From positions 1-32,294 of the forward strand of contig MWOR01000156.1 in NCBI GenBank assembly GCA_002025865.1: 32,294 bases of DNA, written 5' to 3'. Positions 8,098 through 15,532 of this stretch are shown here, piece after piece. How positions within the stretch are numbered: the first letter of the stretch is position 1; each line of letters opens with the position of its first letter. A program made the position numbers and the translations under genes. The notes under the pieces are model-generated. The model made no database searches. It was not told where the DNA came from and was given only the letters and a program-made list of their open reading frames with translations. The DNA is from Prochlorococcus sp. HOT208_60m_813I02 (GTDB lineage Bacteria > Cyanobacteriota > Cyanobacteriia > PCC-6307 > Cyanobiaceae).

Positions 8098-9261
8098 TCA
8101 GAATTTATTTAAAGCAAATAAAATGTCCGAGATTAAATCGTTTGTATCTTCACATCCAATTGATAATCTGACAAGAGCATCATCTATCCCTAGTAAATTT
8201 TTTGTTTTGTCATCAACAGAAGCATGAGTCATCGTTGCAGGGTGACAAATTAAACTTTCAACTCCTCCAAGGCTTTCTGCTAGAGAGAAATATTTGAGAG
8301 ATTTGCAAAATTTAAAAGTATCCTCTTTATTTAAATTTAATTTTAGGGTGATCATTGAACCTCCAGATTTCATTTGCGATTTTGCTAAATTAAATTGCTG
8401 ATGTTTTTGATTAAAGGGATAAATTACTTTACTAATAATTTTATGATTACCTAATTCTTCAGAAATAAATTCTGCACTTTTAGTTTGTTGTTCGATTCTT
8501 AAAGGAAGAGTTTTTACTCCTCTCGTAATGAGCCAACTATCAAAAGGAGATGGTTGAAGCCCGAGAGCTTTTTGAGAGAAAAGCATCTTACTATTCCATT
8601 CCTCATTATTTGTAAGTACTGCTCCGCCAAGTGCATCACTATGTCCATTAATGAATTTTGTGGTGCTTACAAGCGATAGTGTTGCACCAAGGTCCAATGG
8701 TTTTTGAATAAGTGCAGTAGAGAAGGTATTGTCTACAACCACTGGTATTTCGAGTTTATTCGCTTCATCACAAATCGCCTTAATATCGAGTACCTTCAAA
8801 AGTGGATTAGTTGGACTTTCTAGCCATATCAAGGTTGGCTCGAAGGTTGAAATCTTTTTGACATTATTTTCGTTTGTAAAATCTGTGTATAAAACTTCTA
8901 GTCCAAATTTCTTGAAAACTTTTTCGAACATCCTCACTGTACAACCATAGAGATTTGACTCGCAGAGTATCTTGTCACCTGATTTCAGTGTTGATGAAAT
9001 TGCAGTTACCGCGCTAATTCCAGATCCAAAAACTGTACAGTATTTAGAATCTTCTATTGATTTAAGGATGTTTTCTAGAATTCTAAAGTTGGGATTGCCT
9101 GATCTGGTGTAGTCGAAATTATCTTTATTTCCATGTTTGAAAGTAGATGTAGAAAAAATAGGAGGCATAACGCATCCAGTTTCTTCAGCAAATGTTTCCC
9201 CATGGTGAATAGATAAGGTCTTAAAACCTGGCTTTTTTATATTATTTTCCTTATTTCCCAT
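8098..9261 (-). CDS. Cystathionine gamma-synthase/beta-lyase family PLP enzyme
   Basis: A 387-residue member of the Cys/Met-metabolism PLP family (trans-sulfuration), of standard length. The phosphate-binding segment F-G-S-G-I-S-A-V is at about residues 78-85, the Y-T-R-S-G-N-P motif at about 51-57, V-V-D-N-T-F at about 175-180, and the Schiff-base lysine is K202 in S-T-T-K-F-I-N-G-H-S-D. The reaction is gamma-replacement or beta/gamma-elimination on homoserine or cystathionine derivatives. It is the first of a tandem pair; the downstream homologue begins 3 bp after its stop, so the two are surely co-transcribed. The exact substrate is unresolved. Confidence 0.85.
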   Translation of the reverse strand: MGNKENNIKKPGFKTLSIHHGETFAEETGCVMPPIFSTSTFKHGNKDNFDYTRSGNPNFRILENILKSIEDSKYCTVFGSGISAVTAISSTLKSGDKILCESNLYGCTVRMFEKVFKKFGLEVLYTDFTNENNVKKISTFEPTLIWLESPTNPLLKVLDIKAICDEANKLEIPVVVDNTFSTALIQKPLDLGATLSLVSTTKFINGHSDALGGAVLTNNEEWNSKMLFSQKALGLQPSPFDSWLITRGVKTLPLRIEQQTKSAEFISEELGNHKIISKVIYPFNQKHQQFNLAKSQMKSGGSMITLKLNLNKEDTFKFCKSLKYFSLAESLGGVESLICHPATMTHASVDDKTKNLLGIDDALVRLSIGCEDTNDLISDILFALNKF

Positions 9262-9286
9262 TATTTTTTAAAAATAAGAATTAAAT

Positions 9287-9317
9287 TAAATCTCTCATTT
9301 TTTAAAAGAGAGATTTA
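9287..9317 (-). terminator. Hairpin between rpsD and the Cys/Met operon
   Basis: A 10-bp perfect inverted repeat: TAAATCTCTC (9287-9296) pairs with GAGAGATTTA (9308-9317) across an 11-nt AT-rich loop. It sits between the rpsD stop and the start of the next minus-strand gene. No long T run follows on the minus strand, so it may be a weak terminator, an attenuator or an mRNA-processing/stability hairpin separating the two units. Confidence 0.5.
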
Positions 9318-14357: not shown

Positions 14358-15152
14358 TTAAATATTGCCCACTAAAGTTACTGTTCTAAATTCAATATCC
14401 TCAATTACTTTCCAAGGTTCAGCACTCCTTTCTGCAAATTTTAAATTTTTAAATCCTAGTTCTTTAAAGTCACTTATAAACTCTGGCTCATACCATGCTC
14501 CACTAATACATCCTGTCCATAAATCATGATCATTTTGCAATCTTAAAGGAACTTTTTTGTTAGAGACAATATCGCTAATTGCAATTCTTCCATTATCGTT
14601 TAAAACTCTTTTTATATTTCTTAGAAGGTTATTTCTAGATTCTGGACTTACCAAGTTTAAAACGCAATTACTTAAAATAATATCTACTGATTTGTCGGCG
14701 ATTAATGGATTTAAATCTTTATCTAATTCATCAAGTTTTTCAATTGAACCTTCTAGAAATTCTGTATTGTTGAAACCTATATTTTTTGTAACTTTTTTAG
14801 AGGCTGATCTAGATAAAGAAAGCATATCAGGATTCTGATCAACTCCAATAACTTTCCCTTCTTTCCCAACAATTTGGGCACAAATAAAAGCATTTTTGCC
14901 GCTACCACTTCCAAGATCTAAGACTATATCATTTTTTTGAACATATTTTGTTGGATCCCCACATCCATAGTCTCTTTCTATAACCTCTTGAGGAATTGCT
15001 TCAAGTAAAACGGGATTAAACCCAACTGGTGTACAAAGACAACTTTCTTTTTCTAGTGCGGCTGAACCATATCTTTCTTGAATCGCATCTTTATGATCGA
15101 ATTGATTAGATGCTTTATTCGATTTGTTTGTATTACAGCAACTTTCAGACAT
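14358..15152 (-). CDS. ArsM-like SAM-dependent methyltransferase (possible arsenite methyltransferase)
   Basis: A class I methyltransferase, 264 residues from the chosen ATG at 15150-15152 (an in-frame ATG 33 bases upstream would add 11 residues). The SAM-binding motif L-D-L-G-S-G-S-G is at about 78-85, with an acidic motif II near D-Q-N-P. Cysteine positions resemble arsenite methyltransferases: a C-C pair near the N-terminus, C-L-C at about 38-40, Y-G-C-G-D-P at about 62-67, L-S-N-C-V-L-N-L in the middle and G-C-I-S-G-A-W later. This suggests As(III) binding and methylation, inferred from these motifs only. It lies directly after the terminator of the DUF4278 gene, so it probably has its own promoter. 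Confidence 0.75.
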   Translation of the reverse strand: MSESCCNTNKSNKASNQFDHKDAIQERYGSAALEKESCLCTPVGFNPVLLEAIPQEVIERDYGCGDPTKYVQKNDIVLDLGSGSGKNAFICAQIVGKEGKVIGVDQNPDMLSLSRSASKKVTKNIGFNNTEFLEGSIEKLDELDKDLNPLIADKSVDIILSNCVLNLVSPESRNNLLRNIKRVLNDNGRIAISDIVSNKKVPLRLQNDHDLWTGCISGAWYEPEFISDFKELGFKNLKFAERSAEPWKVIEDIEFRTVTLVGNI

Positions 15153-15229: not shown

Positions 15230-15403
15230 TTATTTAGTGTAATTAACACCTCTGTAATTTAAATCAGCTTTTTCATTACTTGAAGAAGCGTCATCCATTC
15301 TGTTGGTGTATACGTTTCTTCTGTAGGTAAGTTCAACAAGTTGCTTTTTAGCAGCTTCTTTGTTTTGAACGTAGTTTTTACCTCTGTAAGTTAAAGTAGT
15401 CAT
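15230..15403 (-). CDS. DUF4278 small protein under glutamine-II riboswitch
   Basis: A small protein of 57 residues from the ATG at 15401-15403, with repeats of the L-x-Y-R-G/R-x-x-Y pattern: L-T-Y-R-G-K-N-Y near the start, L-T-Y-R-R-N-V-Y in the middle and L-N-Y-R-G-V-N-Y at the end. This is the DUF4278 signature. In-frame alternatives upstream are ATG at 15427 (65 residues) and ATG at 15439. The last lies inside the riboswitch helix and is unlikely. The GGGGG purine run abuts the 15427 ATG, so that start (or the GTG/TTG just after) is possible; I prefer 15403 because it places M-T-T-L-T-Y-R-G at the N-terminus. The upstream control region suggests a nitrogen-linked regulator. Function is unknown. 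Confidence 0.78.
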   Translation of the reverse strand: MTTLTYRGKNYVQNKEAAKKQLVELTYRRNVYTNRMDDASSSNEKADLNYRGVNYTK

Positions 15404-15482: not shown

Positions 15483-15496
15483 GTAGCGAATGCTAC
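15483..15496 (-). promoter_or_regulatory. GTA-N8-TAC palindrome, candidate NtcA operator
   Basis: The sequence GTAGCGAATGCTAC (plus strand) is a GTA-N8-TAC palindrome, the recognition pattern of NtcA, the global nitrogen regulator of cyanobacteria. It lies just downstream of the predicted -10 box of the DUF4278 promoter, overlapping the expected start of transcription. That is a repressor position, not an activator position. The same bases could instead form a 5-bp hairpin at the 5' end of the RNA. Binding is inferred. Confidence 0.5.
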
Positions 15497-15502
15497 CAAA
15501 TT

Positions 15503-15532
15503 ATTATAAGCGTATTTTCCCAGGGATGTCTA
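15503..15532 (-). promoter_or_regulatory. Strong sigma70-type promoter of the DUF4278 gene
   Basis: On the minus strand TAGACA (15527-15532; five of six matches to TTGACA) is separated by 18 bp from a perfect TATAAT (15503-15508). This predicts RNA starting near 15496, about 20 bases before the riboswitch. It is the only place in the window where both hexamers are clear. Confidence 0.7.

Follow-up and report, generated by a model that had tools for sequence, protein, structure and literature searches.

A gene for a 57-residue protein in Prochlorococcus sp. HOT208_60m_813I02 lies behind a glutamine riboswitch, and between its promoter and the aptamer sits a palindrome of the form GTA-N8-TAC. 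We asked what this palindrome does at the place where the transcript is predicted to begin, and whether it acts as a binding site in the DNA, as a structure in the RNA or as both. The window analyzed here is the whole stretch of 32,294 nucleotides, positions 1 to 32,294 of contig MWOR01000156.1 (assembly GCA_002025865.1).

Layout of the mini-protein locus

The initial annotation had described a TAGACA-18-TATAAT promoter followed by the palindrome and then the riboswitch. We confirmed this order (Table 1), and all 80 of the close relatives compared share the layout. The promoter has 11 of 12 consensus matches and ranks top of 8 promoter-like sites in 1.5 kb, for which shuffling gives a mean of 5.4 sites. 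The aptamer match (E 5e-14) covers positions 1-60 of the model in full and lies above the curated cut-off of 33. Beginning 6 nt past TATAAT, GTAGCATTCGCTAC forms a perfect 5-bp inverted repeat with a 4-nt loop. It is the only GTA-N8-TAC in the 32-kb window, where 3.1 are expected by chance; the mere presence of the box is unremarkable, and its location at the predicted +1 is what chance does not give. The start codon of the mini-protein, ATG at 15403, was set by comparison with relatives. A methyltransferase gene lies 3′ of the mini-protein (window 14358-15152, minus strand), with matches to Methyltransf_31 and other profiles and several cysteines near its start; it may be an arsenite methyltransferase, a kind of protein that it resembles.

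Table 1. Features of the mini-protein locus in the window and, in the last four lines, of the cassettes on viral contigs
Feature	Position	Strand	Remark
-35 hexamer TAGACA	15532-15527	minus	78 of 80 relatives share hexamer and spacing; one has TAGACG and one TGGACA
-10 hexamer TATAAT	15508-15503	minus	18-nt spacer from TAGACA
Predicted +1, G of the palindrome	15496	minus	placed by the -10 spacing; the published Yfr6 start fits the same G
NtcA-type box GTAGCATTCGCTAC, GTA-N8-TAC	15496-15483	minus	predicted operator spanning +1 to +14; in RNA a 5-bp 5′-terminal hairpin
Glutamine-II (type 2) riboswitch aptamer, RF01704	15480-15423	minus	covariance model, 66 bits, gathering score 33
57-aa DUF4278 mini-protein	15403-15230 including stop (codons 15403-15233)	minus	three YR(G/R) repeats
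Intrinsic terminator-like hairpin with T run	15213-15189	minus	10 bp; 3′ of the gene
Viral cassette, L572	1400-1476	minus	
Viral cassette, L575	1141-1217	minus	
Viral cassette, L583	2249-2325	plus	
Viral cassette, L585	2062-2140	plus	

Close relatives of the mini-protein were found by protein, and the best 80 of 189 were compared. Among these, the box is present in 80/80, GTA follows TATAAT after a spacer of 6 nt in 79 and of 7 nt in the remaining one, and TAGACA stands 18 nt 5′ of TATAAT in 78. The site itself occurs in 8 versions that differ in the loop alone.

The palindrome as a candidate NtcA operator

To see how far the arrangement extends, we assembled 232 Glutamine-II leaders from 26 genomes (101 matches), the window's own genome (3) and 25 further genomes (128 of 132 matches), the 26 and the 25 having been picked among genomes with a Glutamine-II match. 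Such matches are present in 195 of 200 genomes of the genus and in 203 of 300 sampled in the family. An exact box lies at most 60 nt 5′ of the aptamer in 179 of the 232 leaders (79/104 and 100/128), and each of the 52 genomes, from 17 genera, has at least one boxed leader. Shuffling the 104 leaders gave a mean of 2.0 boxes and a maximum of 5, and the stretch farther upstream of the same leaders held none (0/104). The initial annotation had singled out the GTA-N8-TAC spacing as the feature to follow through aligned leaders, and both triplets and spacing are conserved there: N8 occurs in 79 of 104, N7 and N9 in 1 each and N5 in 17, with counts of 0 to 6 for spacings other than N8 and N5, and the next-best palindromic triplet at N8 reaches 9 of 104. 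Pairing of an NtcA-type box with the type 2 glutamine riboswitch thus appears, from these leaders, to be general across these cyanobacteria, and it is seemingly new.

This pairing is not universal, since 53 of the 232 leaders are without the exact motif. Nine of these are copies from this genus that precede a different peptide of 54-56 residues (L003, L322, L323, L336, L337, L339, L340, L343 and L345). Leaders of the 56-residue MNNLLQIREK peptide (L003, L336, L337, L340 and L343) have no NtcA box and keep GTAAAAATTAC, a GTA-N5-TAC, upstream.

Sorted by position, the 179 boxed leaders fall into three geometries that rest on the placement of the -10 hexamer: 144 have the box over +1, 13 over the -10 and 22 upstream of it. 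In the first class, which includes the window, the first base of the -10 lies 12 nt upstream of the G in GTA, with a mean of 4.23 of 6 matches (the median offset has 1.68), making this G the predicted +1. The distance from box to aptamer varies here from 0 to 6 nt, which argues that the box keeps its place relative to the promoter rather than to the aptamer. The 13 boxes of the second class lie 7 nt from the aptamer and are centered near -16.5; their TAC is the start of the best -10, whose 4.15 matches at +11 are helped by this built-in TAC (3.1 in the other classes). In the third class 17-21 nt separate the end of the box from the aptamer, and at -12 there are 0.91 of 6 matches, that is, no preceding -10. 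Its best hexamer usually begins 22-25 nt past the G (14 of 22), which puts the center of the box near -29; this -10 is modest, with 2.86 of 6 matches at +24, and the box's own TAC scores higher (3.09 at +11). We also noted by eye a GAAC-N2-CA element, often TGAACGACA or TGAACACCA, that recurs about 50 nt 5′ of the aptamer, above the -35, in +1-class leaders of the Synechococcus type (e.g. L455, L476, L485, L490 and L508).

All three box positions fall on the core promoter, where NtcA would collide with RNA polymerase. A role for NtcA as an activator was rejected, since the placement of the -10 puts the box away from -41.5 in all three classes. The window's site resembles those of NtcA-repressed promoters: it has the consensus box and, reckoned from the predicted +1, is placed on or past the core promoter and not around -41.5. 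GTA-N8-TAC is described as the NtcA consensus, the boxes of the NtcA-repressed genes rbcL and gor as lying downstream of the -35, and an NtcA site of ilvG as overlapping a repressed start (PMC3898017). Triplets, spacing and placement on the core promoter therefore support the initial annotation's suggestion of an NtcA-type operator in repressor position beside the glutamine riboswitch.

All 27 genomes searched have an NtcA gene, the window's own among them (366.6 bits, cut-off 244.95). As a positive control, we found exact boxes in the 450 nt upstream of glnA in 10 of these 27 genomes, of ntcA in 9 and of amt in 14, several of them distant and perhaps due to chance; the window's genome has none at glnA or ntcA and one at amt. 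Prochlorococcus NtcA is reported to bind GTA-N8/9-TAC of glnA in vitro, more strongly with 2-oxoglutarate, and its affinities are low (4.8 uM for MED4 glnA) (PMC5767323). From the motif and its placement, we infer that NtcA would occupy the window's box and repress the gene. When nitrogen is short and 2-oxoglutarate high, NtcA would sit on +1 to +14 and block RNA polymerase; when nitrogen is ample, NtcA would be off and the mini-protein gene transcribed. Glutamine bound to the Glutamine-II aptamer would then permit translation of the 57-residue peptide, and a type 2 switch of Prochlorococcus has been described as turning on its gene in response to glutamine (Bolay et al. 2018, PMC6316151). The two sensors respond to opposite metabolites with the same direction of effect, so that the peptide would be made only in nitrogen sufficiency. 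We consider it very probable that the palindrome is an NtcA repressor operator and that, with the glutamine aptamer, it restricts the peptide to this state.

The palindrome in the RNA

Because the putative operator begins at the predicted +1, the RNA would begin with a blunt hairpin that has no unpaired 5′ nucleotide. Positions 4 and 11 of the box, the pair next to the triplets, are complementary in 49 of 50 distinct sites of the +1 class (two of them T-A, not G-C), compared to 7 of 18 in the other two classes and 11 of 31 in boxes upstream of glnA, amt or ntcA. The P values obtained for this pair, 2e-7 and 3e-10, come from distinct 14-mers, a choice that limits the effect of relatedness, and still overstate independence. 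The fifth pair has no such excess (32/50, against 16/18 in the other classes and 10/31 at glnA, amt and ntcA). The excess at pair 4/11 suggests that RNA pairing, too, is under selection in the +1 class, a seemingly new observation drawn from sequence comparison; a preference of NtcA for sites symmetric at this pair could contribute to it. More broadly, sites of the window's class are symmetric beyond GTA/TAC, which suggests selection for more than NtcA binding. Bacillus RppH is reported to need at least 2 unpaired 5′ nucleotides (PMC3997798), and by analogy the most likely role of a +1 hairpin would be protection of the 5′ end.

A stem survives in some leaders that no longer have the N8 box (L312, L334, L338, L535 and L540; in L137 the stem is different). 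In nine box-less leaders, chosen by eye from the 53, the best stem gave shuffle P values of 0.009, 0.017, 0.045, 0.077, 0.084, 0.14, 0.36, 0.46 and 0.63; these leftover stems are suggestive only, and residual pairing is what a decayed palindrome would be expected to have. The +1 hairpin with the T run behind it was also flagged as terminator-like, and this reading was rejected: the T run is a feature of the close relatives of this gene, the other leaders of the class are mostly A-rich there (by eye), and a 14-nt terminator at +1 is implausible.

The palindrome might act in the RNA only, as a 5′ stem-loop that protects the mRNA or helps the riboswitch, with its likeness to an NtcA site incidental. 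Such a role would fit both the complementarity of pair 4/11 in the transcribed class, far above that elsewhere, and the stems that survive in some leaders without the N8 box, most of whose shuffle P values are weak. However, the initial annotation had named a palindrome that is only an RNA hairpin as what would overturn its reading, and we found the same box upstream of the inferred -10 in 22 leaders, where it would be untranscribed and hence not an RNA element only. The last 22 nt before the aptamer fold with a mean of -5.5 kcal/mol in the +1 class, -2.5 in the 13 leaders with the box over the -10 and -0.8 in these 22, so the switch does not require a hairpin. GTA/TAC and the 8-nt spacing also dominate, with no rival triplet close, and we judge a purely RNA role to be very unlikely. 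The DNA site could instead serve another CRP-family regulator with the same half-sites, as the motif alone cannot name its protein and all 27 genomes have weaker matches to the NtcA profile. Each of them has only one gene above the curated NtcA cut-off, though, GTA-N8-TAC is the consensus of NtcA itself, and a nitrogen logic suits the adjoining glutamine switch; we give a different regulator very little credence. We thus retain the reading of the palindrome as an NtcA operator.

The mini-proteins, their known relatives and viral copies

The window peptide matches DUF4278 (PF14105) over residues 2-55 with 43.2 bits (cut-off 25.3) and no other Pfam family, and it is the sole DUF4278 match above the Pfam cut-off in its genome (about 85% complete). 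Its AlphaFold model is weak (pLDDT 75, pTM 0.32), and we found no solved structure of a sequence relative. In the +1 class, 118 of 144 leaders precede a small ORF that contains one or more [LVI]xYR repeats, read from the first ATG 8-30 nt past the aptamer; in the full set of 232, 18 ORFs extended past the end of the stretch read and 2 leaders were without an ATG in this range. We chose 42 peptides, 40 from Glutamine-II leaders including the window's and 2 from viral contigs, and all match DUF4278 at E 0.001. In the two genome sets, riboswitch copies reach 9 per genome, and the peptides behind them vary in length. Several dispersed copies score equally within one genome (G272:C1 at 809450, 961360, 2087494 and 2423368; G385:C1 at 994009, 1147127 and 1209516), which suggests recent multiplication.

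Could the peptide be a picocyanobacterial glutamine synthetase inactivating factor, a functional counterpart of the gif proteins, as the initial annotation proposed? DUF4278 is the N-terminal moiety of IF17, the sign of regulation is as in gifB, and an IF-like role has already been proposed for PMM1846 of strain MED4 (Bolay et al. 2018, PMC6316151). gifB of Synechocystis PCC 6803 combines an NtcA-repressed promoter, as predicted for the window gene, with a glutamine riboswitch, is ON at ample nitrogen and encodes a protein with DUF4278, IF17. Its aptamer is of type 1 (glnA) and not Glutamine-II, its NtcA site is centered at -7.5 and not at about +7.5, and IF17 has 149 residues to the peptide's 57. 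The peptide is DUF4278 alone, the part of IF17 reported as dispensable for function and as promoting protein stability, and full-length IF homologues are described as apparently absent from Prochlorococcus (PMC6316151). Our Pfam search, with IF7 and IF17 compared by description, found nothing in the peptide besides DUF4278 that would be their inhibitory portion, and one glutamine synthetase inhibitor would not need up to 9 riboswitch copies with differing peptides. With the domain reported as dispensable in IF17 being all that the peptide has, we regard a gif-like function as rather unlikely. In gifA, which encodes an IF7-type protein, the repressing NtcA site at -30.5 (Synechocystis) or -28.5 (Anabaena) has the geometry of our 22 upstream-box leaders; unlike the window gene, gifA has a second site at -77.5 in Anabaena, and the portions of the paper available to us describe no glutamine riboswitch for it (PMC6316151).

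The core idea of NtcA acting together with the riboswitch is largely in print for PMM1846, which is probably the orthologue of the window gene because the window's genome has one DUF4278 gene above cut-off. For PMM1846, Bolay et al. 2018 (PMC6316151) describe a riboswitch, IF-like features and a motif of the NtcA consensus; like the window gene it encodes a small DUF4278 protein, with the glutamine riboswitch in its 5′UTR and the NtcA motif in its promoter. The accessible portions of that paper give no position, repressor geometry, conservation or RNA role for the motif. In the related literature, as far as its text was available and with Klahn et al. 2018 set aside, we found no statement of the general pairing, the three geometries, the +1 hairpin or viral cassettes with an NtcA box.

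A second MED4 gene bears on the predicted start. The start of Yfr6 was mapped to a G behind a TATA element, with a 33-aa frame from nt 97 and a locus flanked by trnS and nrdJ; the transcript became less abundant when nitrogen was depleted, with the Northern signal called inconstant (Axmann 2005, PMC1242208). Five 33-aa copies of the genus (MTLIYRG/MNLVYRG) carry the box, with the ATG at nt 96, 97, 98, 98 and 98 from the G of GTA. Since Yfr6, by its published description, matches these boxed copies in size and place, it is probably a member of the window's +1 class, probably a paralogue, and its mapped start fits a +1 at the G of the box. The Yfr6/Downstream-peptide motif belongs to the same aptamer family as the window's, with a small ORF behind it (PMC1242208; Steglich 2008, PMC2518516; Weinberg 2010, PMC2864571), and the Yfr6 transcript starts at a G some 20 nt ahead of the aptamer, similar to the window's predicted +1. 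In the passages available on Yfr6 we found no mention of NtcA, and a term search of PMC2518516 gave none. A 33-aa cassette with the box also lies at 9236-9311 (minus strand) of contig L604, beside tRNA-Ser and the adenosylcobalamin-dependent ribonucleotide reductase (nrdJ). This contig is listed as viral and looks like the host trnS-nrdJ region, with a recombinase-like ORF in addition; it is probably the Yfr6 locus with an inserted element.

At least four IMG/VR contigs carry a -10-like stretch, the exact box, a Glutamine-II aptamer (66 to 74 bits) and a YRG mini-protein (Table 1); the scan used exact patterns, which makes this count a lower bound. L572 encodes terminase, portal and major head protein by profile, and L575 a terminase by profile and a portal-like ORF resembling that of L572. 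L583 has a 2OG-Fe(II) oxygenase and Hsp20 as neighbors, and the neighbors of L585 resemble these; we saw no structural gene in the stretches examined, so the viral nature of both rests largely on the IMG/VR collection. Matches to DUF4278 are weak and below the Pfam cut-off for the peptides of L575, L583 and L585, and the window peptide matches the phage families phrog_5049 (5e-6) and phrog_545 (5e-4). Among named phages, none matched the leaders at the DNA level or four of the peptides in tblastn, a search whose sensitivity is limited by short peptides and the BLAST filter. Phages are known to have glutamine riboswitches, and Prochlorococcus phage AG-345-P14 is one example (PMC9004378); viral contigs with a cassette of NtcA box and Glutamine-II riboswitch are seemingly new. 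On L651 (3610-3679, plus strand), a phage-like contig with PhoH and ThyX, GTATGTTAGCATAC precedes a weak Glutamine/Glutamine-II match and a different small ORF, and the same stretch occurs in L643.

A wider reading, which we put forward tentatively as quite possible, gives the palindrome two uses: it would be an NtcA operator in the DNA and a blunt 5′ hairpin that shields the riboswitch mRNA, within a portable nitrogen-sufficiency cassette of operator-hairpin, glutamine aptamer and YRG mini-protein. This cassette would have multiplied in the genomes of picocyanobacteria and been acquired by their phages, which would so read 2-oxoglutarate and glutamine of the host together. Regulation of glutamine synthetase in marine picocyanobacteria has been called unclear (Bolay et al. 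2018, PMC6316151). If, as a rule, the type 2 switch goes together with an NtcA operator on the core promoter, dozens of mini-proteins would form one nitrogen-sufficiency regulon that could be tested as a group. With the phage copies, viruses would have this two-metabolite gate as well. Of these results, the dual-use palindrome and the viral cassettes most deserve further attention.
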